From Planctomyces sp. SH-PL62 (GTDB lineage: Bacteria > Planctomycetota > Planctomycetia > Planctomycetales > Planctomycetaceae), in the NCBI GenBank assembly GCA_945893045.1, contig CAMDEA010000023.1:1-64000 (forward strand): 64,000 nucleotides of DNA, written 5' to 3'. Below the pieces are notes generated by a model. The model was given only the letters and a program-made list of their open reading frames with translations. It searched no databases and was not told the DNA's origin. The position numbers and the translations under genes are program-made. Of the stretch, positions 3,939 through 15,600 are shown piece after piece. Each line of letters starts with the position of its first letter. The stretch's first letter is position 1.

Positions 3939-6746
3939 ATGAAACGCTGGCCGCTCGTGTTACTGCTAAGCGCCGTCATTGGGCGTGGTGAAGTCCGCTT
4001 AATCGACAAGGCGACCGCTCAAGAGAAGCCAGCCGTGACGGTGCCAGTCTCAATTTTTGAGAAAGACATTCGGCCTGTGCTCCAGGCGAAGTGCGGGAGA
4101 TGTCACGGTGAGGATGTTCGCAAAGGGGAACTGGCTCTGCACACTCCCGCCGGGATCCGGAAAGGGAGCGAATCGGGTCCGATCCTTGTGCCTGGGCAGT
4201 CGGAGAAGAGTCGGCTTTATGAAATGGTGCGCGACGGCGAGATGCCGCCGGACAAAAAGAATCCGTTGACCAAAGCCGAGGTAGAAATCATCCGCCGTTG
4301 GATCGACGGCGGTGCTCGGTTTGAAAACGAGACAGCGACGAAACCAGAAATCACTCAGCACGACATCGTGCCGATCCTGTTGCTGCGCTGCACGGCCTGC
4401 CACGGCCGGCAAAAGCGTGAGGGGGAACTCGATCTGCGAACTCGCGCGGCGATGTTGCGCGGCGGGAAATCGGGACCGGCATTCGTCTCCGGCAAGCCGG
4501 ACGAAAGTCTGATTCTCAAACGCCTCCAACGTGAAGAGATGCCCCCTCGGCAACGGCTGGTCGAGGCGATGGTCAAGCCGATGGAAGCGACTGAAATCGA
4601 GAAACTCACCCGCTGGATCGCGCTCGGAGCACCGGAGGTGGCCGACGAACCCGATGTCGCAGGGACTCCCGCTGATCCGCTGGTGAGCGCCGAGGATCGC
4701 GAGTTCTGGTCGTTTCAACGTCCGCAAAAAGTGACGGTGCCGGATGTGGCGCACGCGGCTCGCGTGCGAAACCCAGTCGATGCGTTCGTCCTCCAAAAGC
4801 TCGCCGAGAAAGGTCTCTCGCTGTCGCCCGAAGCCGATCGACTGACTTTGTTACGACGAGCTGCGTTTGATCTCACAGGGCTGCCACCAGAGCCGGCCGA
4901 AGCTGCAGCCTTCTTGGCAGATGCTGATCCGCGAGCCTACGAGAAACTGATTGACCGCTTGCTCGCTTCGCCGCGCTACGGCGAGCGTTGGGGCCGGCAT
5001 TGGCTGGATGTTGCCGGCTATGCCGACTGCGAAGGCCGACGCGAACAGCATCTGCCTCGGCCGTCCGTGTGGCGGTATCGCGATTATGTGATCCGCTCGT
5101 TCAACGCCGACAAGCCGTATGACCGCTTCTTGCAGGAGCAACTCGCGGGGGACGAACTCGCCGACTACGAACACGCGCCGGAGATCACGCAGGAGATGGA
5201 AGACAACCTCGTCGCGACGGCGTTCCTGCGCATGGCTCCCGATCCGACATGGGCCAACCTCACCGGCTTCGTTCCCGATCGGTTGGAGGTCATGGCCGAT
5301 TCGATGGACGTGCTCGGCTCCGGCGTGATGGGGCTGACGTTCAAGTGCGCTCGCTGCCACAGCCACAAGTTCGATCCCATCCCGCAGCGCGATTACTACC
5401 GCTTGGTCGCGATCTTCAAAGGAGCCTACGACGAACACGATTGGCTCAAGCCGCAGCTCATCGGATACGGCGGCGCGTTGAGTGCCAGTTTCGGCGAACG
5501 CTACTCGCCGCACGTCACAACGGCCGAACGCCAACGAATTGACGAACACAACGCCGCGATTCAACGCGACATCGACACGCGCAAAGGTGGCCCGCAAACG
5601 CCGGCGACCGCGAAGCAGATCAACGAACTCAACGCGAAGCGCTTACCGGAATCACGCCTCTTCACCCTCTGGGATCGTGGTGAGCCGTCGCCAACTTACA
5701 TCTATCGGCGCGGCGACTACCAGAATTCCGGAACGCTGGTCGCGCCCGGCCCTCCCGCTGTGCTGGCTGATCGGGAGACGACATTCGAGATTGTTCCACC
5801 GTGGCCCGATACGAAATCCACCGGTCGCCGATTGGCGTTCGCGCGCTGGCTGACGCAACCGAATTCCTCCGCAGGCGGACTGACCGCGCGCGTGATGGTC
5901 AATCGAATTTGGAAACATCATTTCGGTCAGGGGCTTGTGAAGAGCGTGGGCAACTTCGGAAAGACCGGCGACCGGCCATCGCATCCCGAACTGCTCGATT
6001 GGCTGGCTCAGGAGTTTGTCCGCCAACGTTGGAGCCTGAAGGAGATGCACCGGCTCATGATGACGTCGAGCGTTTACCGGCAGGGAGGTCAGAGGGGGAG
6101 AGAGGGAGAGGGGGAGAGGGGGAGAAATACAAACAACGCTGCCGACGATCCGTCTCCCTCTCCCCCTCTTCCGCCCGACGCCGACAACCGGCTGCTTTCG
6201 CGGATGCCGCTGCGGCGCATGGAAGCCGAACTCTTACGCGATTCGTTGCTGCTCGTGGCGGGGCAACTCGACGAGACTCGTTTTGGCCCGGGCGACGCAG
6301 TCACTGTGCGACCGGATGGGCTGGTGCTCTCCGGCAAGCGGCGCAGTGTCTATGTGCAACAACTCCGCAAACACCCGGCCTCGTTGCTGGAGAGTTTTGA
6401 TCTCCCCGCCATGAATCCGAATTGCTTGCAACGGGCCGAGTCTCTGGTCGCACCGCAGGCGTTGCATCTGATGAACGATGCCACCGTTCGAGAACTCGCT
6501 CGCCAATTCGCTGACCGAGTGCAGCGCGAAGCGGGCGATGATTCGGCACGCCAAGTTCAGCGAGCCTATTGGATCGCGCTGACTCGTCCGCCGAGCGACG
6601 AAGAACTCACAAACTGTTTGCAGACGCTGACGTCTTTGACCGAGCAATGGACGAAACAAGTTTCCGCCGCCGAGGCTTCGCGAAAAGCGTTGGCGACTCT
6701 GTGCCACACGATCATGAACTCGGCATCGTTTCTGTACGTCGATTGA
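3939..6746 (+). CDS. PSD1 / planctomycete cytochrome c-type protein (DUF1549-DUF1553)
   Basis: Encodes 935 residues with an N-terminal Sec signal (MKRWPLVLLLSAVIG). Two cytochrome c-like modules follow, with heme motifs CGRCH near residues 52-56 and CTACH near 150-155. The DUF1549 (PSCyt2) domain starts near residue 285 (NPVDAFVLQKLAEKGLSLSP) and includes the typical PRYGERWGRHWLDVAGYADC. DUF1553 (PSD1) fills the C-terminal part (MVNRIWKHHFGQGLV, LLDWLAQEF). Families of this type are exported and very expanded in planctomycetes; a role in periplasmic electron transfer or sugar/sulfated-glycan breakdown is suspected but unproven. It is followed by a DUF1501 gene, the usual pair. A purine-rich low-complexity insert at 6091-6169 adds about 26 residues near positions 718-743. 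Confidence 0.9.
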   Translation: MKRWPLVLLLSAVIGRGEVRLIDKATAQEKPAVTVPVSIFEKDIRPVLQAKCGRCHGEDVRKGELALHTPAGIRKGSESGPILVPGQSEKSRLYEMVRDGEMPPDKKNPLTKAEVEIIRRWIDGGARFENETATKPEITQHDIVPILLLRCTACHGRQKREGELDLRTRAAMLRGGKSGPAFVSGKPDESLILKRLQREEMPPRQRLVEAMVKPMEATEIEKLTRWIALGAPEVADEPDVAGTPADPLVSAEDREFWSFQRPQKVTVPDVAHAARVRNPVDAFVLQKLAEKGLSLSPEADRLTLLRRAAFDLTGLPPEPAEAAAFLADADPRAYEKLIDRLLASPRYGERWGRHWLDVAGYADCEGRREQHLPRPSVWRYRDYVIRSFNADKPYDRFLQEQLAGDELADYEHAPEITQEMEDNLVATAFLRMAPDPTWANLTGFVPDRLEVMADSMDVLGSGVMGLTFKCARCHSHKFDPIPQRDYYRLVAIFKGAYDEHDWLKPQLIGYGGALSASFGERYSPHVTTAERQRIDEHNAAIQRDIDTRKGGPQTPATAKQINELNAKRLPESRLFTLWDRGEPSPTYIYRRGDYQNSGTLVAPGPPAVLADRETTFEIVPPWPDTKSTGRRLAFARWLTQPNSSAGGLTARVMVNRIWKHHFGQGLVKSVGNFGKTGDRPSHPELLDWLAQEFVRQRWSLKEMHRLMMTSSVYRQGGQRGREGEGERGRNTNNAADDPSPSPPLPPDADNRLLSRMPLRRMEAELLRDSLLLVAGQLDETRFGPGDAVTVRPDGLVLSGKRRSVYVQQLRKHPASLLESFDLPAMNPNCLQRAESLVAPQALHLMNDATVRELARQFADRVQREAGDDSARQVQRAYWIALTRPPSDEELTNCLQTLTSLTEQWTKQVSAAEASRKALATLCHTIMNSASFLYVD
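6091..6169. repeat. purine/pyrimidine inverted repeat inside PSD1 gene
   Basis: A run of AGAGGGGGAGAGAGGGAG type (from 6091) is mirrored by a TCTCCCTCTCCCCCTCT stretch (6153-6169) on the other side of a short non-repetitive loop. It is translated in frame as Arg/Gly/Glu-rich then Pro/Ser-rich sequence, unlike the flanking DUF1553 domain. Confidence 0.65.
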
Positions 6747-6756
6747 GGCTGGTCAC

Positions 6757-6841
6757 GGGGTCGGGAGTCTTTTTCATGCCGCCGATAACAGACACAACAT
6801 TCAAAGCTCAAGAAGGCGGCATGAAAAAGACTCCCGACCCC
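6757..6841. repeat. perfect 27-bp inverted repeat that carries a start codon
   Basis: Arms at 6757-6783 and 6815-6841 are exact reverse complements (GGGGTCGGGAGTC... outward) with a 31-base loop. The right arm holds an ATG at 6821 and the next six codons of the DUF1501 protein; the left arm holds an alternative in-frame ATG at 6776. A second GGGGTC-ended element lies at 18485-18552. Confidence 0.9.
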
Positions 6842-8260
6842 TTCACTCGCCGCAGCTTCTTCACCAGCGTTGGAGCCGGTCTGCACGGGGCTGCGTTGCT
6901 GCATCTCTTCGGCCGTGATTCGTTCGCGAACGAACCGCGTGTGGCGACCGATTTGAGAGCACGGCCGACGCATTTTTCGGCGAAAGCGAAGTCCGTCATT
7001 CAGCTTTTTATGAATGGTGGTCCTAGCCAAATGGACCTGTTCGATCCAAAAACGGAACTCGACCGGCATCACGGCGAGGCGTACTTCAACAAGATCGCTG
7101 GTGAAGTCGAGAACGTGGCCGACGCCGGTGCGCTCATGCGTAGTCCGTTCAAGTTTGCGAAACATGGCGAGTGCGGCATGTCGGTCTCAAACGCGCTGCC
7201 GCATCTGACGAAGCACGTCGATGACATCGCGCTGATCCGGTCGCTGTTCACGACGAACATCACGCACGAACCGGCGCTCTACATCATCCAGAGCGGGCAC
7301 ATGCCGTCAGGGTATCCGACACTGGGTTCTTGGGTCGTGTACGGACTCGGCTGCGAGTGCCAGAACTTGCCGGCGTACGTGGTGCTGGACGATCCGCTGG
7401 GGCTGCCGATCAACGGCGTCGAGAATTGGCACGCGGGCTTCCTGCCGCCGACCTTTCAGGGAACGCGGTTCCGTTCGACCGGTTCGCCGGTACTGAACCT
7501 GCGGCCGGAAACCGCAGACCCACCGGAGATCGCGCGTCTGCAACGCGACCTCTTGAATCGGCTCGACCGACTCCATCAACGGCAACGGCCGAGCCAGCCG
7601 AATCTCGACGCACGCATCGCCAGCTACGAACTCGCCGCGCGGATGCAGATGTCTGCGACCGATGCGCTCGACCTGTCACAAGAAACTCGTCAGACGCAGG
7701 AACTGTACGGCATCGGTCGCGAGCCGACTGATTCCTATGGCCGGCGTTGCCTGATCGCTCGGCGCTTGGTCGAGCGCGGCGTCCGCTTCGTGCAGCTCTT
7801 CATCAACGCTCAAATTTGGGACAACCACACGGGACTCGCCACCGACATGAAGGCCGCCTGCGATCGCACCGATCTGCCGATCGCCGGCCTGTTCTTCGAT
7901 CTGAAGCAACGCGGGTTGCTCGACGAGACGCTGCTCATCTGGGGCGGCGAGTTCGGCCGCTTGCCGATCGCTCAACTTCCGAAAGACAAAGACGAACGCA
8001 AAGCCGGCCGCGACCACAACAAGAACGCCGCCTGCTGCTGGCTCGCCGGTGGCGGTGTGAAGGGCGGCACGACTTACGGCTCGACCGACGATCTTGGTTT
8101 CGCCGCGGTGGAAAAACGAGTCAGCGTTCCCGACTGGCACGCCACGATCTTGCACCTGCTCGGCATGCACCACGAAGACCTGTTCGTCAACGAGCACGGC
8201 CTGAAAGAAAAACTGACCGGCGTGCAACCCGCCCGCGTGGTTCGCGAGATTCTGGCCTGA
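6821..8260 (+). CDS. Tat-exported DUF1501 protein
   Basis: Encodes 479 residues from the ATG at 6821. An in-frame ATG at 6776 would add 15 residues. I prefer 6821 because AAGAAGG lies just upstream and a Tat signal follows at once: TRRSFFTSVGAGLHGAALLHLF at about residues 9-30. The DUF1501 domain shows VIQLFMNGGPSQMDLFDPK near residue 50, RSLFTTNITHEPALYIIQSG in the middle, and GGEFGRLP with GRDHN in the alkaline phosphatase/sulfatase-like C-terminal half. DUF1501 proteins are exported partners of PSD1 proteins and have a sulfatase-like fold; their substrate is unknown. The gene lies 74 bases after the PSD1 stop, and its first codons lie within a palindromic element. Confidence 0.88.
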   Translation: MKKTPDPFTRRSFFTSVGAGLHGAALLHLFGRDSFANEPRVATDLRARPTHFSAKAKSVIQLFMNGGPSQMDLFDPKTELDRHHGEAYFNKIAGEVENVADAGALMRSPFKFAKHGECGMSVSNALPHLTKHVDDIALIRSLFTTNITHEPALYIIQSGHMPSGYPTLGSWVVYGLGCECQNLPAYVVLDDPLGLPINGVENWHAGFLPPTFQGTRFRSTGSPVLNLRPETADPPEIARLQRDLLNRLDRLHQRQRPSQPNLDARIASYELAARMQMSATDALDLSQETRQTQELYGIGREPTDSYGRRCLIARRLVERGVRFVQLFINAQIWDNHTGLATDMKAACDRTDLPIAGLFFDLKQRGLLDETLLIWGGEFGRLPIAQLPKDKDERKAGRDHNKNAACCWLAGGGVKGGTTYGSTDDLGFAAVEKRVSVPDWHATILHLLGMHHEDLFVNEHGLKEKLTGVQPARVVREILA

Positions 8261-8321
8261 GCCTCATCTTGCCCCATCCGGGCAACCGATATCACCGGAA
8301 AAGTCTGTCATAGGATCGGCT

Positions 8322-9236
8322 ATGTGCCTTGCTGCGCGCGTTCAAAACTTGATGCGTTGTCGGCGTGTCCGTTGGACGACATCATCGGTGGGGCGGTCGT
8401 TCGTCGCGCTGGGGATGCTGCTGATGCCCTGGCTCAATGGCTGTGCGACTCATCGAGCACTTCGCCAACACACCGCAGCCGCCAACATCACCGTCGCTGA
8501 TATCTATTATCAGCAAGTCCTGAACAACGTGGCGTGCTTCGCATCAAATCCGATGGCGATGCCCTCGTTCTCGATGGTGACCGCGGGAACGGTGAACATC
8601 GAAGATCAGCAGGGGGCCAGCTTCAATCCCACCTACAGCCCGACGCTGACGCGGATGTCGCAAGGTGGTGGCGCTCTCCCGATTCTCTCGCTGCTCTTCG
8701 GAGTGTCCGCGACGCGATCCGTGACCGAGAATTGGTCGACCACTCCGGTGACCGATTCAGACAACATCCGCCGCCTGCGTTGCGCGTTTCAAATCATCGT
8801 TGGCGCGGGGAATTCCGAGTGTGATCACTGTCAGGATCGGCTCAAAGGTTTCTTCGTCGGGGGAACGGAATCTTACGAGTGCATGTTGCCGCTGGGCTGG
8901 TACTGCGTGGGCGGCAAAGAGGATGTCCCCAAGGACGCTTGCCATGTCGGACAGTATTGCGACACCTACGTTTGGGTGATGCCTGAGGGCGTGGATGGGC
9001 TGACTCGGTTCACCATCACTGTGCTCGACATCGCGACGGGCGAGATTCACGCTCCCCAACGCTCCGTGGTGAAGACGTACAAGGGGGAGCCTAAGCCTGA
9101 GAACCTGGAAACCACACAGGTCACGTCGCAAGAACTCGACGAGGAGGCCCTCAAGGATGCCTCGAAGTTCATGCTGGATCGCGATCGTCCGGAAACGCAG
9201 AACATGAATCGCGGACTCTTCTTTGTGCCACGGTGA
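8322..9236 (+). CDS. putative lipoprotein, function unknown
   Basis: Encodes up to 304 residues. A basic N-terminus (RCRRVRWTTSSVGR) precedes a hydrophobic stretch SFVALGMLLMPW and a lipobox-like LNGC near residue 41, so it is probably a lipoprotein. An ATG at 8352 would give a shorter, more normal signal peptide and may be the real start. The mature part has several Cys residues, including CDHCQDR and an ECMLPLGWYCVGG region, and no domain I know. The sequence after the lipobox (HTAAANITVADIYYQQVLNN) resembles other planctomycete outer-envelope lipoproteins in general style only. It is a single gene between the PSD1/DUF1501 pair and the MNT-HEPN unit. Confidence 0.7.
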   Translation: MCLAARVQNLMRCRRVRWTTSSVGRSFVALGMLLMPWLNGCATHRALRQHTAAANITVADIYYQQVLNNVACFASNPMAMPSFSMVTAGTVNIEDQQGASFNPTYSPTLTRMSQGGGALPILSLLFGVSATRSVTENWSTTPVTDSDNIRRLRCAFQIIVGAGNSECDHCQDRLKGFFVGGTESYECMLPLGWYCVGGKEDVPKDACHVGQYCDTYVWVMPEGVDGLTRFTITVLDIATGEIHAPQRSVVKTYKGEPKPENLETTQVTSQELDEEALKDASKFMLDRDRPETQNMNRGLFFVPR

Positions 9237-9292
9237 TTGCGGCAGAGCGCCGGACAGTCTGTGGCGAACTGTGAGATTCCCATGCGAACTTC

Positions 9293-9320
9293 TTGAGGCG
9301 GACACCGGATGCGATAGACT
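9293..9320 (+). promoter_or_regulatory. possible sigma70-type promoter for MNT-HEPN unit
   Basis: TTGAGG (9293-9298) and TAGACT (9315-9320) are spaced by 16 bases, about 60 bases before the GTG start at 9380. This is a consensus-like reading only. Confidence 0.3.
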
Positions 9321-9379
9321 CACCCCCGCAGTTGGCCGTTCGCAATCCGCTGTCGCTTCCGAATTTCAGAGAAACCACC

Positions 9380-9673
9380 GTGATCGCCAATCGTCAAGAT
9401 TTGTTGAGCTGCTTGAGCTTGGCGAAGCCGTCACTTGAACGCGAGTTTCCGTTACATCGGCTGGCTCTCTTCGGCTCATGGGCGCGCGAGGAAGCATCGG
9501 CTCAGAGTGACGTGGATGTCCTGGTCGAGGTTGATCCAAGTATCGGCCTGAGGTTCATCACTCTGGCGGAGCGGCTGGAAGCTTTGCTGGGAAGACGAGT
9601 GGACCTCGTCTCGCGACGCGCGATTCAACCGCGATTGTGGAAGCTGATCGAACCGGAGTTGATTGATGTCTAA
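9380..9673 (+). CDS. MNT-type nucleotidyltransferase (antitoxin family)
   Basis: From the GTG at 9380 it encodes 97 residues, the usual length of MNT antitoxins; a TTG at 9293 would add 29 residues that look non-conserved. The nucleotidyltransferase core reads LALFGSWAREEASAQSDVDV followed by LVEVD, giving the GS...DxD metal/nucleotide site. A later segment reads LLGRRVDLVSRRAIQPRLW. In the type VII HEPN-MNT system the MNT protein AMPylates a tyrosine of the HEPN RNase and silences it. The gene overlaps the HEPN-NHL gene by 8 bases, so translation is likely coupled. Its active-site residues are all present. Confidence 0.85.
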   Translation: MIANRQDLLSCLSLAKPSLEREFPLHRLALFGSWAREEASAQSDVDVLVEVDPSIGLRFITLAERLEALLGRRVDLVSRRAIQPRLWKLIEPELIDV

Positions 9674-10985
9674 ACGCGATCCACAGATTTTGGTCGCGGA
9701 TGTCCGACTCGCGATTGAAAAAATCGAACGCTATCTCACCGGACTCAATCACGATCAGTTTCTGGCGGATGACCTGCGAAAGGATGCCGTCGCACGCAAC
9801 CTGGAGATCATCGGTGAAGCCGTGCGACAGATGCCGGAAGGTTTCCGGCAAGCTCATGCGGATGTTCCGTGGCAACAAATTGCCGGGCTACGAAACCGAA
9901 TTGTTCACGACTACTTCGGTCTCGACTGGGAAATCATCTGGCATGTTACTCAAACCGAACTCGCAGTCTTGAAAGCCCAATTGCCGAAAGACCCTCTCGT
10001 CGTCGGCTCCGGTGAGTTTCGATATCGAGTCGCTGTCGATTGGCCCCACTGGCCCGACGACTGGAACATGATCGAGGTCGTGGGAGTCGCCACCGATTCG
10101 CAGGATCGCGCGTTCGTCCTCAGCCGAGGCGAGCATCCGGTCACGGTCTTTGATCGCGAGGGCCGATTCCTGTCTTCATGGGGCGAAGGATTGTTCTTGC
10201 GTCCGCACGGCATCACGGTGGCTCCCGATGATACGGTGTTCTGCACCGACGACTTCGGACACACCGTGCGGCAATTCACCACGGACGGCAAGCTGCTGAT
10301 GACGTTGGGAACTCACGGACAACCGTCTGACACCGGCGCGACGAGCATCGACTATCGCACGATCCGACACGCCGGGCCGCCATTTCACTTTCCGACAAAC
10401 GTCGCATTGGCTCCATCCGGTGAGTTGTTTATCTCCGATGGCTACGGCAACGCGCGCATTCACAAATTCACGGCAGAGGGGCGATTGCTGCACTCATGGG
10501 GAGAACCGGGAACTGGTCCGGGACAGTTTCAAATCCCGCATGGCATCGCCATCGACCGACAGGGGACGGTGTATGTGGCCGACCGCGAGAACAGTCGGTT
10601 GCAACTCTTCTCTCCTGACGGCGACTTTCTGACGGAGTGGCCGGACATCGCTCGGCCGTGTGAAGTGGCGATCGACAACGACGGCCGAGTGTTCGTGGCC
10701 GAGGTGGGCTATCGCGCGGGGATGTGGCCGGGCACGATTCCGCCGCATCTGAATGCGACCGGAGGCCGAGTCAGCATCTTCGATTCGCGAGGCCAACTGC
10801 TCGCACGTTGGGGCGGCGGAGACTCCCCGTGTGCTCCGGGAGATTTCTTTGCCCCGCACGACATTTGGTTTGATTCGCGCGGGGATCTGTATGTCTCCGA
10901 AGTTGTCCGCGCTGCATCTGGCAACGTGAAGCCGCCGGTCGGCGACTATCACACGTTGCAGAAGTTCGAGCGGCTGCCGTCGTAG
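9666..10985 (+). CDS. HEPN (HepT-like) domain fused to NHL beta-propeller
   Basis: Encodes 439 residues. Residues 1-108 are a HepT/DUF86 HEPN domain: [20 protein letters not shown], then [19 protein letters not shown], with the catalytic RX4HXY motif at Arg76, His81 and Tyr83. Where HepT proteins normally end (VLKAQLPK), the frame runs directly into [16 protein letters not shown], which looks like the start of a separate secreted or cytosolic NHL-repeat protein. At least five NHL-type repeats follow (for example [20 protein letters not shown] and [20 protein letters not shown]). The HEPN half would be an RNase toxin controlled by the overlapping MNT gene. TTG codons near the junction could start a separate NHL protein. 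The stop codon lies in a GTAG palindromic element. Confidence 0.85.
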
Positions 10986-11033
10986 CCGAGTCGCTCTGCG
11001 GCTCGGATCGGCGTCGCGGAGCGACGCCGCTAC
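10982..11033. repeat. GTAG-headed palindromic doublet between convergent genes
   Basis: The element opens with GTAGCCGAG and closes with CGCCGCTAC, with imperfectly complementary arms. The TAG in its head is the stop codon of the HEPN-NHL gene, and the gltD stop lies two bases beyond its other end. It could act as a bidirectional terminator. Confidence 0.7.
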
Positions 11034-11034
11034 G

Positions 11035-12519
11035 TTACGGCAACTGCGTATTTCCCATCAAGAACCGATCGCACTCGCGGGCACATTCGCGGCCCTCGTT
11101 GATGGCCCAGACAATCAGGCTTTGCCCGCGGCGGCAGTCGCCTGAGGCGAACACGCCGGGAATGCTCGTCGTGTACTTGCCGTAGTCCGCTTTGAAGTTG
11201 GAACGCGGGTCCAACTCGATGCCCAGTTGATCGGCCAGCAACTTCTCTGGGCCGAGAAAGCCCAGAGCCAGGAAGACGAGATCGCATTCAAATTCGACTT
11301 CCGAACCTTCGATGCGAGTGAACGGCGCGCCGCCTTTGACGGGCTTGGACCAATCGACTTTCACCGTCGTCAGCGACTTGAGATTGCCGTTCGCGTCGCC
11401 ATTGAATCGAACCGTGTCGATCGCAAACGTACGCGGATCGGCACCGAATTTCGCTTCCGCCTCGGCGTGGCCGTAATCGACTCGGAAGATGCGCGGCCAT
11501 TGCGGCCACGGGTTATTGCCGGCTCGATCGTCGGGCGGCTGCGGGACGATTTCAAAGTTCAACAGGCTGGAGCAACCCTGTCGCATCGACGTGCCGAGGC
11601 AGTCGTTGCCCGTATCACCGCCGCCAATGACGATGACTTTCTTCCCCTCGGCATTGAGAAACTTCCCGTCACGCAGATCGGAGTCCAACAGACTCTTCGT
11701 GTTGGCGTGCAGGAACTCCATCGCAAAGTGGACCCCCTTGAAATCCCGGCCAGGGATCGGCAGATCGCGCGGCTTGGTCGCTCCGGTCGCCAGCACAATC
11801 GCGTCGTTCTCCTCGCGCAGGTGAACGGCGTCGATGTCCTTGCCGACTTCGCAGCTCGTCACGAACTTCACGCCCTCGTCGGCCAGCAAGTTGACGCGCC
11901 GCTGCACGACCCACTTTTCGAGCTTCATGTTCGGGATGCCGTACATCAGCAACCCGCCGATCCGATCCGCTCGTTCGTAGACCGTGACGGAGTGCCCCGC
12001 TCGATTGAGCTGCGCCGCCGCTGCCAGCCCGGCCGGCCCGGAGCCAATCACCGCGACCTTCTTCCCCGTCCGAGTCTTCGGCGGCTCGGCCGTCACCCAG
12101 CCTTCGTCAAATCCCTTGTCGATGATCGAGCACTCGATGTTCTTGATCGTCACCGCCGGCGACGTGATCCCCAGCACGCACGAACCTTCGCACGGGGCCG
12201 GACAGACTCGCCCGGTGAACTCCGGAAAGTTGTTCGTCTTGTGCAGCCGATCAAGCGCCTCGCGCCAGTGCCCGCGATAGACGAGATCGTTCCATTCCGG
12301 GATGAGATTGTTGACGGGGCATCCCGCCGCCATGTTGGCGATCAATCCGCCGGTGTGGCAGAACGGCACGCCGCAATCCATGCACCGCGCCCCCTGCTTG
12401 CGGAGATCCTCCTCCAGCATGTGATGATGAAACTCACGCCAATCCAAAATCCGCAACGCCGGATCACGATCCGTCGGCAACTGCCGATTGAATTCCATAA
12501 AGCCCGTTGGCTTACCCAT
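11035..12519 (-). CDS. gltD: glutamate synthase small subunit
   Basis: Encodes 494 residues, normal for GltD. It passes electrons from NADPH via FAD and iron-sulfur centres to the large subunit. The N-terminal cysteine region reads [15 protein letters not shown], then [20 protein letters not shown] and [16 protein letters not shown], the ligands of the 4Fe-4S clusters. The first dinucleotide site is [17 protein letters not shown] near residue 154, and the second is [20 protein letters not shown] near residue 290. The C-terminus has [19 protein letters not shown], which closes over FAD. It lies 122 bases after gltB on the same strand, so the two form a gltBD operon with gltB first. The start is the ATG at 12519. 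Confidence 0.96.
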
Positions 12520-12641
12520 CGCACTGACTCACTTTCTCGAATGTCGGTCTCTGTCTGTTTTCAATCCGTCCGATCCGCGTTCACTCCACAAAGTTCGCGA
12601 TGCCGGGCGAACACGGATTTCACGGATGACACGGATTCAAG

Positions 12642-15600
12642 TCACACCTGTCCTGCCGCCGTCGCCACAACCTTGGCGGTTTTGGCCGGAGCTTCTTTCG
12701 CCATTTCCGCCAAAGCACGCTTGTAATCGACCGGCATGACCTTGAGGAAATGGTTCAGTTCGGTCTTCCAGTTGGCGAGGATGCGTTTGGCGACGTCGCT
12801 GCTGGTGTAGTTGGCGTGATTCGTGATGAGCCGTTTGAGGTCGGCGATGTCGGAATCGGCTTCGAGTTTTTCCAACTCAACCATTTCCGGGTTGCAATTG
12901 GCTTTGAATTGAGCGTGCGGGTCATAGACGTAGGCGATACCGCCGCTCATGCCGGCGGCGAAGTTGCGGCCCGTCGGGCCGAGCACCACCGCTCGGCCGC
13001 CGGTCATGTATTCGAGGCCGTGGTCGCCGCAGCCTTCGACGACCGCTTCGGCTCCGCTGTTGCGGACGCAGAAGCGTTCGGCGGCGACGCCGTTGAAGTA
13101 CGCTTCGCCGGCGATCGCTCCGTAGAGCGCCACGTTGCCGATGATGATGTTCTTGTCGGTCTCGTAGGTGACCGCTTTCGGCGGGTAGATGATGACGCGA
13201 GCACCGCTGAGTCCCTTGCCGACGTAGTCGTTGGCGTCTCCTTCGAGTTCCAGCGTCACGCCATGCACGGCCCAGGCTCCGAAGCTTTGGCCGGCGTGGC
13301 CGGTGAACTTCAGATGGATCGTGTCGTCGGGCAGGCCGTTCGCGCCCCAGCGTTTGCTGACTTCGTGAGAGAGCGTTGTGCCGGTCGCTCGGTCGGTGTT
13401 CACGATGCGGAGTTCTTTCCGCAGCTTCGTGCCGTTCGCGATCGCCTCGCGACAAATCGGGATCAGCGTCGTCTGGTCGAGCGTGAATTCCAGACCGTGC
13501 CGTTGCCCCACTGAGCAGTACGTCCCGACATTCTCGTGTGGCTTGCGAGCCATCATCAGGATCGGTGAGAGGTCGATCCCCTTGGCTTTCCAGTGATTGA
13601 TCGCGGCGTCGGTCTCCAACAGATCGACTCGGCCGACGAGTTCATTCATCGTGCGGATACCGAGCGAGGCCATGATCTCGCGGCATTCCTCGGCAGCCAT
13701 GAAGAAGTAGTTGATGACGTGCTCCGGCTGCCCGTTGAATTTCTTGCGCAGCTCCGGGTCTTGCGTCGCGATGCCGACGGGGCAGGTATTGAGATGACAC
13801 TTCCGCATCATGATGCAGCCGAGCACGATCAACGGCCCGGTTGCGAATCCGAACTCTTCGGCTCCCAACATGCACGCAATCGCGATATCGCGGCCGGTCT
13901 TCAACTGGCCGTCGGTCTGCAAGCGAACGCGGCTGCGGAGGTCATTCATCACCAGCGTTTGGTGCGTCTCCGCGATGCCGAGTTCCCACGGCAGGCCGGC
14001 GTACTTGATCGACGTCAGCGGACTCGCGCCCGTGCCCCCTTCGGTGCCGGCGATCGTGATGTTGTCGGCGTGACCTTTCGCGACTCCGGCTGCGATCGTG
14101 CCGACGCCCACTTCGCTGACCAGCTTCACGCTGACGCGCGCCGACGGGTTCGCGTTCTTCAAGTCGAAGATGAGCTGAGCGAGATCCTCAATCGAATAGA
14201 TGTCGTGATGCGGCGGCGGACTGATGAGTCCGACTCCGGGCGTGCTGTGCCGAGTCGCCGCGATGATCTTGTCAACTTTGTGGCCGGGGAGTTCGCCCCC
14301 TTCGCCGGGCTTCGCTCCCTGAGCGATCTTGATCTGCAACTCGTCGGCATTCGTGAGATACCAGCTCGATACACCGAACCGACCGCTGGCGACTTGTTTG
14401 ATGGCCGAGCGTCGCGAGTCGCCGTTTGCGTCGGGGATGAACCGCTTGTAGTCCTCGCCCCCTTCGCCGGTGTTGCTCTTGCCGCCGATGCGGTTCATCG
14501 CGATCGCGAGCGACTCGTGAGCGTCCGCCGAGATCGACCCGTAACTCATCGCGCCGGTGCAGAAGCGCTTGACGATTTCCGCAGCCGGTTCGACTTGATC
14601 GAGTGGAATCGGTGTGAGACTGGACTTGATCTTCAACAAGCCTCGCAGGAAACACGCCTTGTGAGTGTCTTCATTCACAATCTGCGCGAAGCGTGTGTAC
14701 GAAGTCTTGTCGCCCGTCCGCGCGGCGTTCTGAATTTCGGCGATCGTGAACGGGTTCCAGGCGTGCTTCTCGCCGGTCTTCCGCCAATGGAACTCGCCGG
14801 GGTTCGGCAGCACCGATGCCGACTGTCCTTCGCGCGGCGGATATCCGACCTCGTGCCGCTGCATCGCTTCGATGCCGAGCACTTCAAAATCCACTCCCTT
14901 GATGCGGCTGGCCGTTCCCGCGAAGCAGTAATCGACGACGCTCTCGTTCAGACCGAGCGCCTCGAAAATCTGAGCACCCTTGTACGACTGCAACGTCGAG
15001 ATGCCCATTTTGCCCATGACCTTGAGCATCCCCTTCTCGACCGCTTTGCGATACGCGGCGACGATCTTGTCGTCGGTCCAATGATCGCCGAGTGTCCCCT
15101 CCTCACGGCATTGCCGCAGCGCCTCGAACGCGAGATACGGATTGATCGCGTCCGCTCCGTAGCCGACCAGCAAGCAGTGATGATGCACTTCGCGAGCCTC
15201 GCCGGTCTCGACGATGATGCCGATGCGCGTCCGCAATTCGTGCCGCACGAGATGCTGATGCACCGCACCGACCGCCAGCAGCGAAGAGACCGGCACTCGT
15301 TCCGGTCCTGTCTTGCGATCCGAGAGCACGATCAAACTGAAACCACTCTCGATCGCCTGCATCGCTTCCTGGCAGATGCGTTCGAGACACCAGCGCAGAC
15401 CCGGATCGCCCTGCGAACGCGGGAACGAGATGTCGATCGTCTTCGTTTTCCAGTGGCGATAATTGAGGTGCCGAATCGACGCCAACTCTTCATTGGTCAG
15501 GATCGGGTTCGGTACGACCAGCCGATGACATTGCCGCTCGGTCGCATCGAGCAGATTGCCTTCCGGTCCGATGAAGCACTCCAGCGACATGATGACTTCT

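Follow-up and report, generated by a model that had tools for sequence, protein, structure and literature searches.

In-frame joining of a type VII-like MNT-HepT cassette to an NHL propeller gene in a planctomycete operon: a probable captured passenger

Introduction

Positions 9380 to 10985 of the DNA analysed here raise the question of whether a HEPN toxin that continues without a stop into an NHL propeller is a new kind of sensor toxin or two genes joined by some other event. The window (the whole stretch analysed, 64,000 nucleotides of Planctomyces sp. SH-PL62) had been described in an earlier note, made from the letters and their open reading frames, as carrying a working type VII toxin-antitoxin core whose propeller might sense a ligand or target the RNase; a lost stop codon was given as the simple alternative. 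Class I HEPN/MNT pairs are defined by the motifs RX4HXY and GSx10DxD (PMC7641770), and MntA is described there as transferring AMP to the tyrosine of the HEPN motif, by which the RNase is blocked (PMC7641770).

Layout and motifs of the locus

The following features were delimited at the locus:

9380..9673, plus strand: MNT (MntA-like) gene with GTG start and GSx10DxD (Pfam)
9666..10985, plus strand: HEPN-NHL fusion open reading frame, 439 aa (ORF calling and Pfam)
9666..9989, plus strand: HepT-like HEPN part with RX4HXY at R76-H81-Y83 (Pfam)
9981..9983, plus strand: in-frame TTG, a possible internal start for a free propeller, without a clear ribosome-binding site
9987..10004, plus strand: junction KDPLVV, replacing the HepT end and the first residues of the propeller
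10005..10982, plus strand: NHL propeller, 326 residues, with five invariant residues (Pfam)

The MNT frame terminates at TAA 9671-9673, and its start at GTG 9380 is supported by the resemblance of the sequence directly upstream to that of the copy in G006, a genome of the same genus. The HEPN frame opens at ATG 9666, overlaps the MNT gene by 8 nt and is stop-free through 10985 (439 codons). All three Pfam scores exceed the gathering scores: HepT-like (PF01934) with 99 bits (cut-off 23.5) and NHL (PF01436) with 72.9 bits in three stretches (cut-off 20) were recorded in the fusion frame, and NTP_transf_2 (PF01909) with 38.8 bits (cut-off 21) in the MNT protein. R76, H81 and Y83 of RX4HXY are all present in the HEPN part, and the MNT protein carries G32-S33 followed, after ten residues, by D44-x-D46 (counted on the translation). 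The description given in the earlier note was thereby confirmed with respect to the MNT gene overlapping an in-frame HEPN-NHL frame, the complete RX4HXY motif and the GS...DxD site, and the propeller of about 325 residues said to follow the HEPN domain without a stop was measured at 326. The fusion protein, with a mass of about 49 kDa and 439 aa, is unlike the usual small stand-alone form of HepT, a form that is no formal criterion of the class. A promoter scan of positions 8200-11100 returned none, and one terminator-like site was observed in the same interval against 2.6 expected by chance.

The pair shares with the HepT/MntA systems of type VII (PF01934/PF01909; PMC7641770) the MNT gene in first position, its overlap with the HEPN gene and both motifs, and differs from them in the 326-residue propeller at the C terminus of the toxin; the likeness is one of sequence alone. 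The NCBIfam models NF047751 (HepT) and NF047752 (MntA) gave 46.5 and 44.3 bits, respectively, both below the equivalog cut-off of 60, and the pair is therefore termed type VII-like only. The type VII core claimed in the earlier note stands as far as the HEPN and MNT motifs and the Pfam families above cut-off are concerned, but the name itself had to be weakened. The MNT protein matches the PADLOC models PDC-S09 (best 1.5e-21), a label for candidate defence genes only, and no PADLOC model matched the fusion protein. The work that demonstrated the modification employed Shewanella HepT bearing a His6 or FLAG tag at its C terminus (PMC7641770), so a C-terminal extension need not block modification, although the propeller is far larger than a tag. 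Judged from the motifs, a working toxin-antitoxin pair with the propeller as passenger would be expected.

Empty site and origin of the fusion

The neighbourhood of the fusion was compared with that in relatives by means of the following features:

3939..6746, plus strand: PSCyt1/PSCyt2/PSD1 gene of the operon that apparently received the cassette (Pfam)
6569..8260, plus strand: DUF1501 gene, the start probably lying further inside (Pfam)
8322..9236, plus strand: gene left of the insertion, lipoprotein-like by reading, collinear in G002 and G004
9237..10002, plus strand: insert of about 765 bp that G002 and G004 lack (blastn gap)
11035..12519, minus strand: right flank, GltD-like oxidoreductase gene, collinear in G002, G004 and G008

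Window positions 6001-14000 were aligned by blastn with nine loci of relatives. In G002 and G004 (same genus) the matches run up to 9236-9238 and resume from 10003, with about 25 bp between them; there, 7 bp separate the stop of the lipoprotein-like gene from the NHL ATG, and no MNT-HepT intervenes. G008 has the right flank and the DUF1501 gene in common with the window, and the lipoprotein-like gene is absent at the site (blastn). The GC content of the insert is 0.56 versus 0.60 for the window.

A search of 59 relatives was performed with the fusion protein as the query. Among the matches listed, the propeller occurs without HEPN in seven genomes of the genus (G002, G004, G008, G005, G011, G006 and G007; 83-94% identity), with its own ATG in all seven (from the in-frame translation for six, from the DNA for G011), and the HEPN half stands without a propeller in G006 and G007 (81% identity in each across the domain), where HepT ends in a stop of its own and is preceded by a separate MNT gene. 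HepT and NHL lie at unrelated loci in the relatives found. In the blastn alignments, similarity to HepT stops at 9987 and similarity to NHL starts at 10003, or at 9986 in the case of G008. HepT ends with TVN-stop in G006 and TAS-stop in G007, and the propeller begins with MNDQDVF in G004; in the fusion, the HepT end and these first residues are together replaced by KDPLVV. From these alignments the HepT stop and the NHL start are taken to have been lost together in the lineage of the window, and the fusion is read as the product of a lineage-specific insertion of the MNT-HepT block.

The unrelated loci of HepT and NHL in the relatives found are also the reason for invoking an insertion and not merely a lost stop. 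Simple stop loss between adjacent HepT and NHL genes was rejected, since the two are not neighbours there. The lost-stop alternative of the earlier note is correct in that the HepT stop has gone, but the NHL start has gone too. Relatives with separate HepT and NHL genes and a stop between them, which the earlier note had named as evidence against a fused architecture, were not what was encountered; in the relatives found, the genes stand apart in the genome.

That an error of assembly or base calling joined or corrupted the region is very improbable. Such an error would be favoured by the fragmented assembly (251 contigs, 89.25% complete) and by the fact that a second genome of the species was not seen, but both flanks are collinear with G002 and G004, with the cassette alone extra, the frames agree, stop and start are both replaced, and a related cassette with an empty site exists in another genome. 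The collinear flanks, together with the lack of room for a stop plus the native NHL start, make an artefact of assembly unlikely. A one-base sequencing error as the sole cause was rejected, as the NHL start is missing as well.

Related cassettes

Related cassettes were sought with the G006 region as the query against 12 genomes of the genus. Contig G007:C14 matches the sequences that flank the MNT-HepT pair of G006; these two matches are separated by 17 bp, versus 700 bp in G006. The G006 insertion occupies L038:3078-3777 (G006:C391), and the empty site in G007 is found at L089:2706-2722 (G007:C14). At the G006 site HepT and a convergent gene on the other strand have overlapping stop codons, the CTA of the target side overlapping the TAA of HepT. 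The MNT-HepT pair of G007 itself is located elsewhere, on C49, and its flanks gave short, weak matches in other genomes. Three members of the genus thus carry related cassettes, each at a different place, and for two of these places a relative has the empty site. On this basis we infer that the MNT-HepT cassette is mobile. A profile search of contigs with a HepT alignment yielded two confirmed loci, apparently G006:C391 and G007:C49, for HepT only.

Outside the two genes, the cassette copies resemble one another over no more than a few bases preceding the MNT start. The 134 bp preceding MNT in the window had no match elsewhere in the 12 genus genomes, and no target-site duplications were seen by eye at the window's site or at that of G006. 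The cassette may lack a stop of its own, but the HepT ends of G006 and G007 equally allow an alignment in which they have the stop in common. At synonymous sites, MNT and HepT stand much further from the copies in G006 and G007 (dS 1.7-1.9 or saturated) than the propeller stands from its counterparts in G002 and G004 (dS 0.46 and 0.59).

A stretch of about 100 bp, L038:4454-4552, accounted for most of the listed matches of the search with the G006 region. It was found in all 12 genus genomes, often on both strands at one spot, and has the appearance of an interspersed, partly palindromic repeat spread across the genus.

Occurrence of the architecture

The fusion protein is matched in 166 of 170 genomes of the family, and among the matches listed only that of the window spans both halves (up to 10 candidates per genome were scored here, weaker matches lying outside the listing). 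In a sample of the class, HepT matches at 1e-12 were obtained from 45 of 397 genomes, 61 matches in all (G006 lies outside this sample); family and class samples each contained one genome per species. The open frames of the 60 class matches other than the window's comprise at most 316 codons, and the frame of 316 codons owes its length to an upstream overhang. At most 20 residues follow the domain in all 36 HepT homologues examined, which consist of 35 of these 60 matches plus G006; two of them, L069 and L070, were flagged as containing TGA. In the remaining 25 matches the open frame does not exceed 162 codons, which is too short for HEPN plus propeller.

The same fusion in other planctomycetes, for which the earlier note had suggested a search, was accordingly not encountered: no second HEPN-NHL fusion was present among the matches listed for the 59 relatives, the 170 genomes of the family and the 397 of the class (overlapping samples, with a limited number of candidates scored per genome). 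Viral contigs gave one pattern match and no relative of the fusion. Recurrence of the architecture was dismissed as a candidate reading, as it was not seen among the matches listed for the relatives, family genomes, class genomes and viral contigs searched. The fusion appears, on the evidence of these searches, to be a real but so far one-off chimera and no established new kind of sensor toxin.

Fusions of HEPN RNase domains to further domains are known. WD40 repeats are fused to HEPN in Dictyostelium C6orf70 proteins (PMC3710099) and in oyster TRADD-N proteins (PMC8195603), and the fusions of DUF86/HepT in a survey table comprise MNT, a nuclease and a methylase (PMC3710099). The proteins with repeats resemble the present one in joining HEPN to a further domain, but they belong to other HEPN families and carry WD40, not NHL, repeats (PMC3710099, PMC8195603). 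The words NHL and propeller are absent from the main text of the HEPN survey (PMC3710099). In the library searched there was no paper combining HEPN with 'NHL repeat' or 'NHL domain', and none of the papers listed on in-frame insertion of toxin-antitoxin genes looked relevant.

The propeller and its gene context

The operon is ordered PSCyt2/PSD1, DUF1501, lipoprotein-like gene, NHL. By collinearity this order is common to G002 and G004, and it is the same in G008 apart from the lipoprotein-like gene, which stands between DUF1501 and NHL in the window, G002 and G004 and is not there in G008. The lipoprotein-like gene gave no Pfam or NCBIfam match. Genes for PSCyt2/PSD1 and DUF1501 adjoin relatives of the propeller at all five loci scanned with Pfam (the window, a paralogue on contig C33 of the same genome, G005, G006 and G007), and from this conserved context it follows that the propeller already belonged to a distinct gene set prior to fusing. 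Within the genus, PSCyt2/PSD1, DUF1501 and the NHL propeller recur together as a set whose order varies (window 3939-8260; L087, L043, L045, L046). A literature search on DUF1501 together with DUF1553 in Planctomycetes found nothing. The paralogue, at G000:C33:37186-38148 in the genome of the window, is a second propeller with 69% identity that lies beside DUF1501 and PSD1 genes of its own; no such copy was present among the matches listed for G002, G004 and G008.

When solved structures were searched with the propeller profile, Thin and TRIM71 ranked top by summed repeats, and the lyase (PAL) domain of peptidylglycine alpha-amidating monooxygenase (PAM) was matched at 1.9e-32 (3fvz) in one stretch over several blades. 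Residues R154, H181, Y260, H292 and H398 of the fusion are invariant in 18 of 18 family members, which had been chosen from the best matches. By reading, H181, H292 and H398 would occupy equivalent places of alternating blades. The PAL site uses three His, one Tyr and one Arg residue, and the His residues bind metal. We presume, by register only, that the five invariant residues resemble this site; Y260 falls near PAM 654 and H292 near PAM 690 by matched ranges only. A PAL-like propeller is a lead and no finding, because the placement relies on ranges; no source for the PAM residue numbers was found in a literature search. The fusion shares the NHL-type propeller with the PAL domain (PDB 3fvz, 5wm0), and the five residues may be a further point in common; the two differ in the junction with HEPN.

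Some TRIM71/Brat-type NHL propellers bind RNA. Their presence among the nearest solved relatives, and the fact that both halves of the fusion are intact, in frame and separated by about six residues, could point to a propeller that works as a control or targeting domain, a ligand, metal or partner altering the RNase activity, the AMPylation or the location of the toxin. The overall pI of 5.30 of the propeller speaks against a basic RNA-binding surface as in propellers of that type and gives no hint of RNA binding. Counting also against a control domain are its single occurrence among the family and class matches and the retention of the presumed active-site residues, which, like the low dN/dS reported below, is as expected if the old job was kept. 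We regard such a role as improbable. The sensing or targeting function suggested in the earlier note found no comparative support, there being no other fusion among the matches listed and the propeller having a conserved context of its own.

Selection on the parts

The dN/dS of the propeller is 0.062 versus G002 and 0.068 versus G004, and 0.066 between G002 and G004. Unique changes were counted where the other two of the three sequences and G008 agree; 10 nonsynonymous and 28 synonymous ones were obtained in the propeller of the window, against 1 and 30 in those of G002 and G004 pooled. Fisher's test gave p = 0.017 for the pooled comparison and p = 0.09 and 0.08 versus each sister alone, the comparison being post hoc and based on few changes. 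A cruder count gave nonsynonymous to synonymous ratios of 21:37 in the window and 7:25 and 8.7:39 in the sisters. The propeller is constrained, yet it has changed faster on the branch of the window than in the sisters, and it may therefore be acquiring another role or giving up its former one. For MNT and HepT, comparison with the G006 or G007 copies gives a dN/dS of about 0.07 wherever dS is unsaturated, a value that covers mostly the time before the fusion.

The faster amino-acid change is open to two uses. It would fit recruitment of the propeller, in which its ligand or metal state, or partners from the PSCyt/DUF1501 set, would gate the HEPN RNase or the AMPylation by MNT; the chance of this is slim, but if it were true a type VII toxin would be tied to a metabolic function and the faster change would be its mark. 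It would equally fit a neutral or mildly harmful accident in which the toxin, the propeller or both are disabled and the frame decays while the C33 paralogue covers the function of the propeller. An accident of this kind is unlikely. It is favoured further by that 69% identical paralogue in the same genome and by the fact that the searches brought up the fusion in no other genome, but the frame contains neither stop nor frameshift, the propeller shows a dN/dS of 0.06-0.07 to G002 and G004, and every motif and invariant residue has been retained. A decaying propeller is thus disfavoured by its constraint (0.062-0.068), and the faster change on the branch keeps decay as a rival.

Proposed origin and significance

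The reading that we prefer, and consider probable from the sequence comparisons, is one of capture: a mobile, type VII-like toxin-antitoxin cassette would have taken up the final gene of an operon, which it now carries as a C-terminal passenger. A compact MNT-HepT cassette would have entered the operon at the border of its last gene, NHL, and the insertion would have removed the HepT stop together with the NHL start, so that HepT is translated in frame into the propeller. The HEPN domain would still be an RNase toxin, restrained by the overlapping MNT through AMP on Tyr83. The propeller would still fold and keep its older job, possibly a metal-dependent, amidating-lyase-like one, and would act either as the C-terminal passenger of the toxin or from the internal TTG start. 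If the propeller is made only from the toxin-antitoxin message, loss of the cassette would cost the propeller as well. Points against this capture are that the C33 propeller, at 69% identity, could cover the function, that the propeller has changed faster on the branch of the window, and that MNT and HepT fall below the NCBIfam cut-offs.

What would be new here is the capture of an adjacent propeller by the toxin of a type VII-like pair, the underlying type of pair being already known. The locus offers a clean snapshot of how an in-frame join can integrate a toxin-antitoxin cassette into a host operon, the empty site being kept in close relatives. The propeller, possibly amidating-lyase-like, appears to recur as a partner of PSCyt/DUF1501 genes in planctomycetes. 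Should the chimera be functional, it would show one way in which a toxin-antitoxin pair can anchor itself, its loss costing a host gene, and how toxins gain domains.
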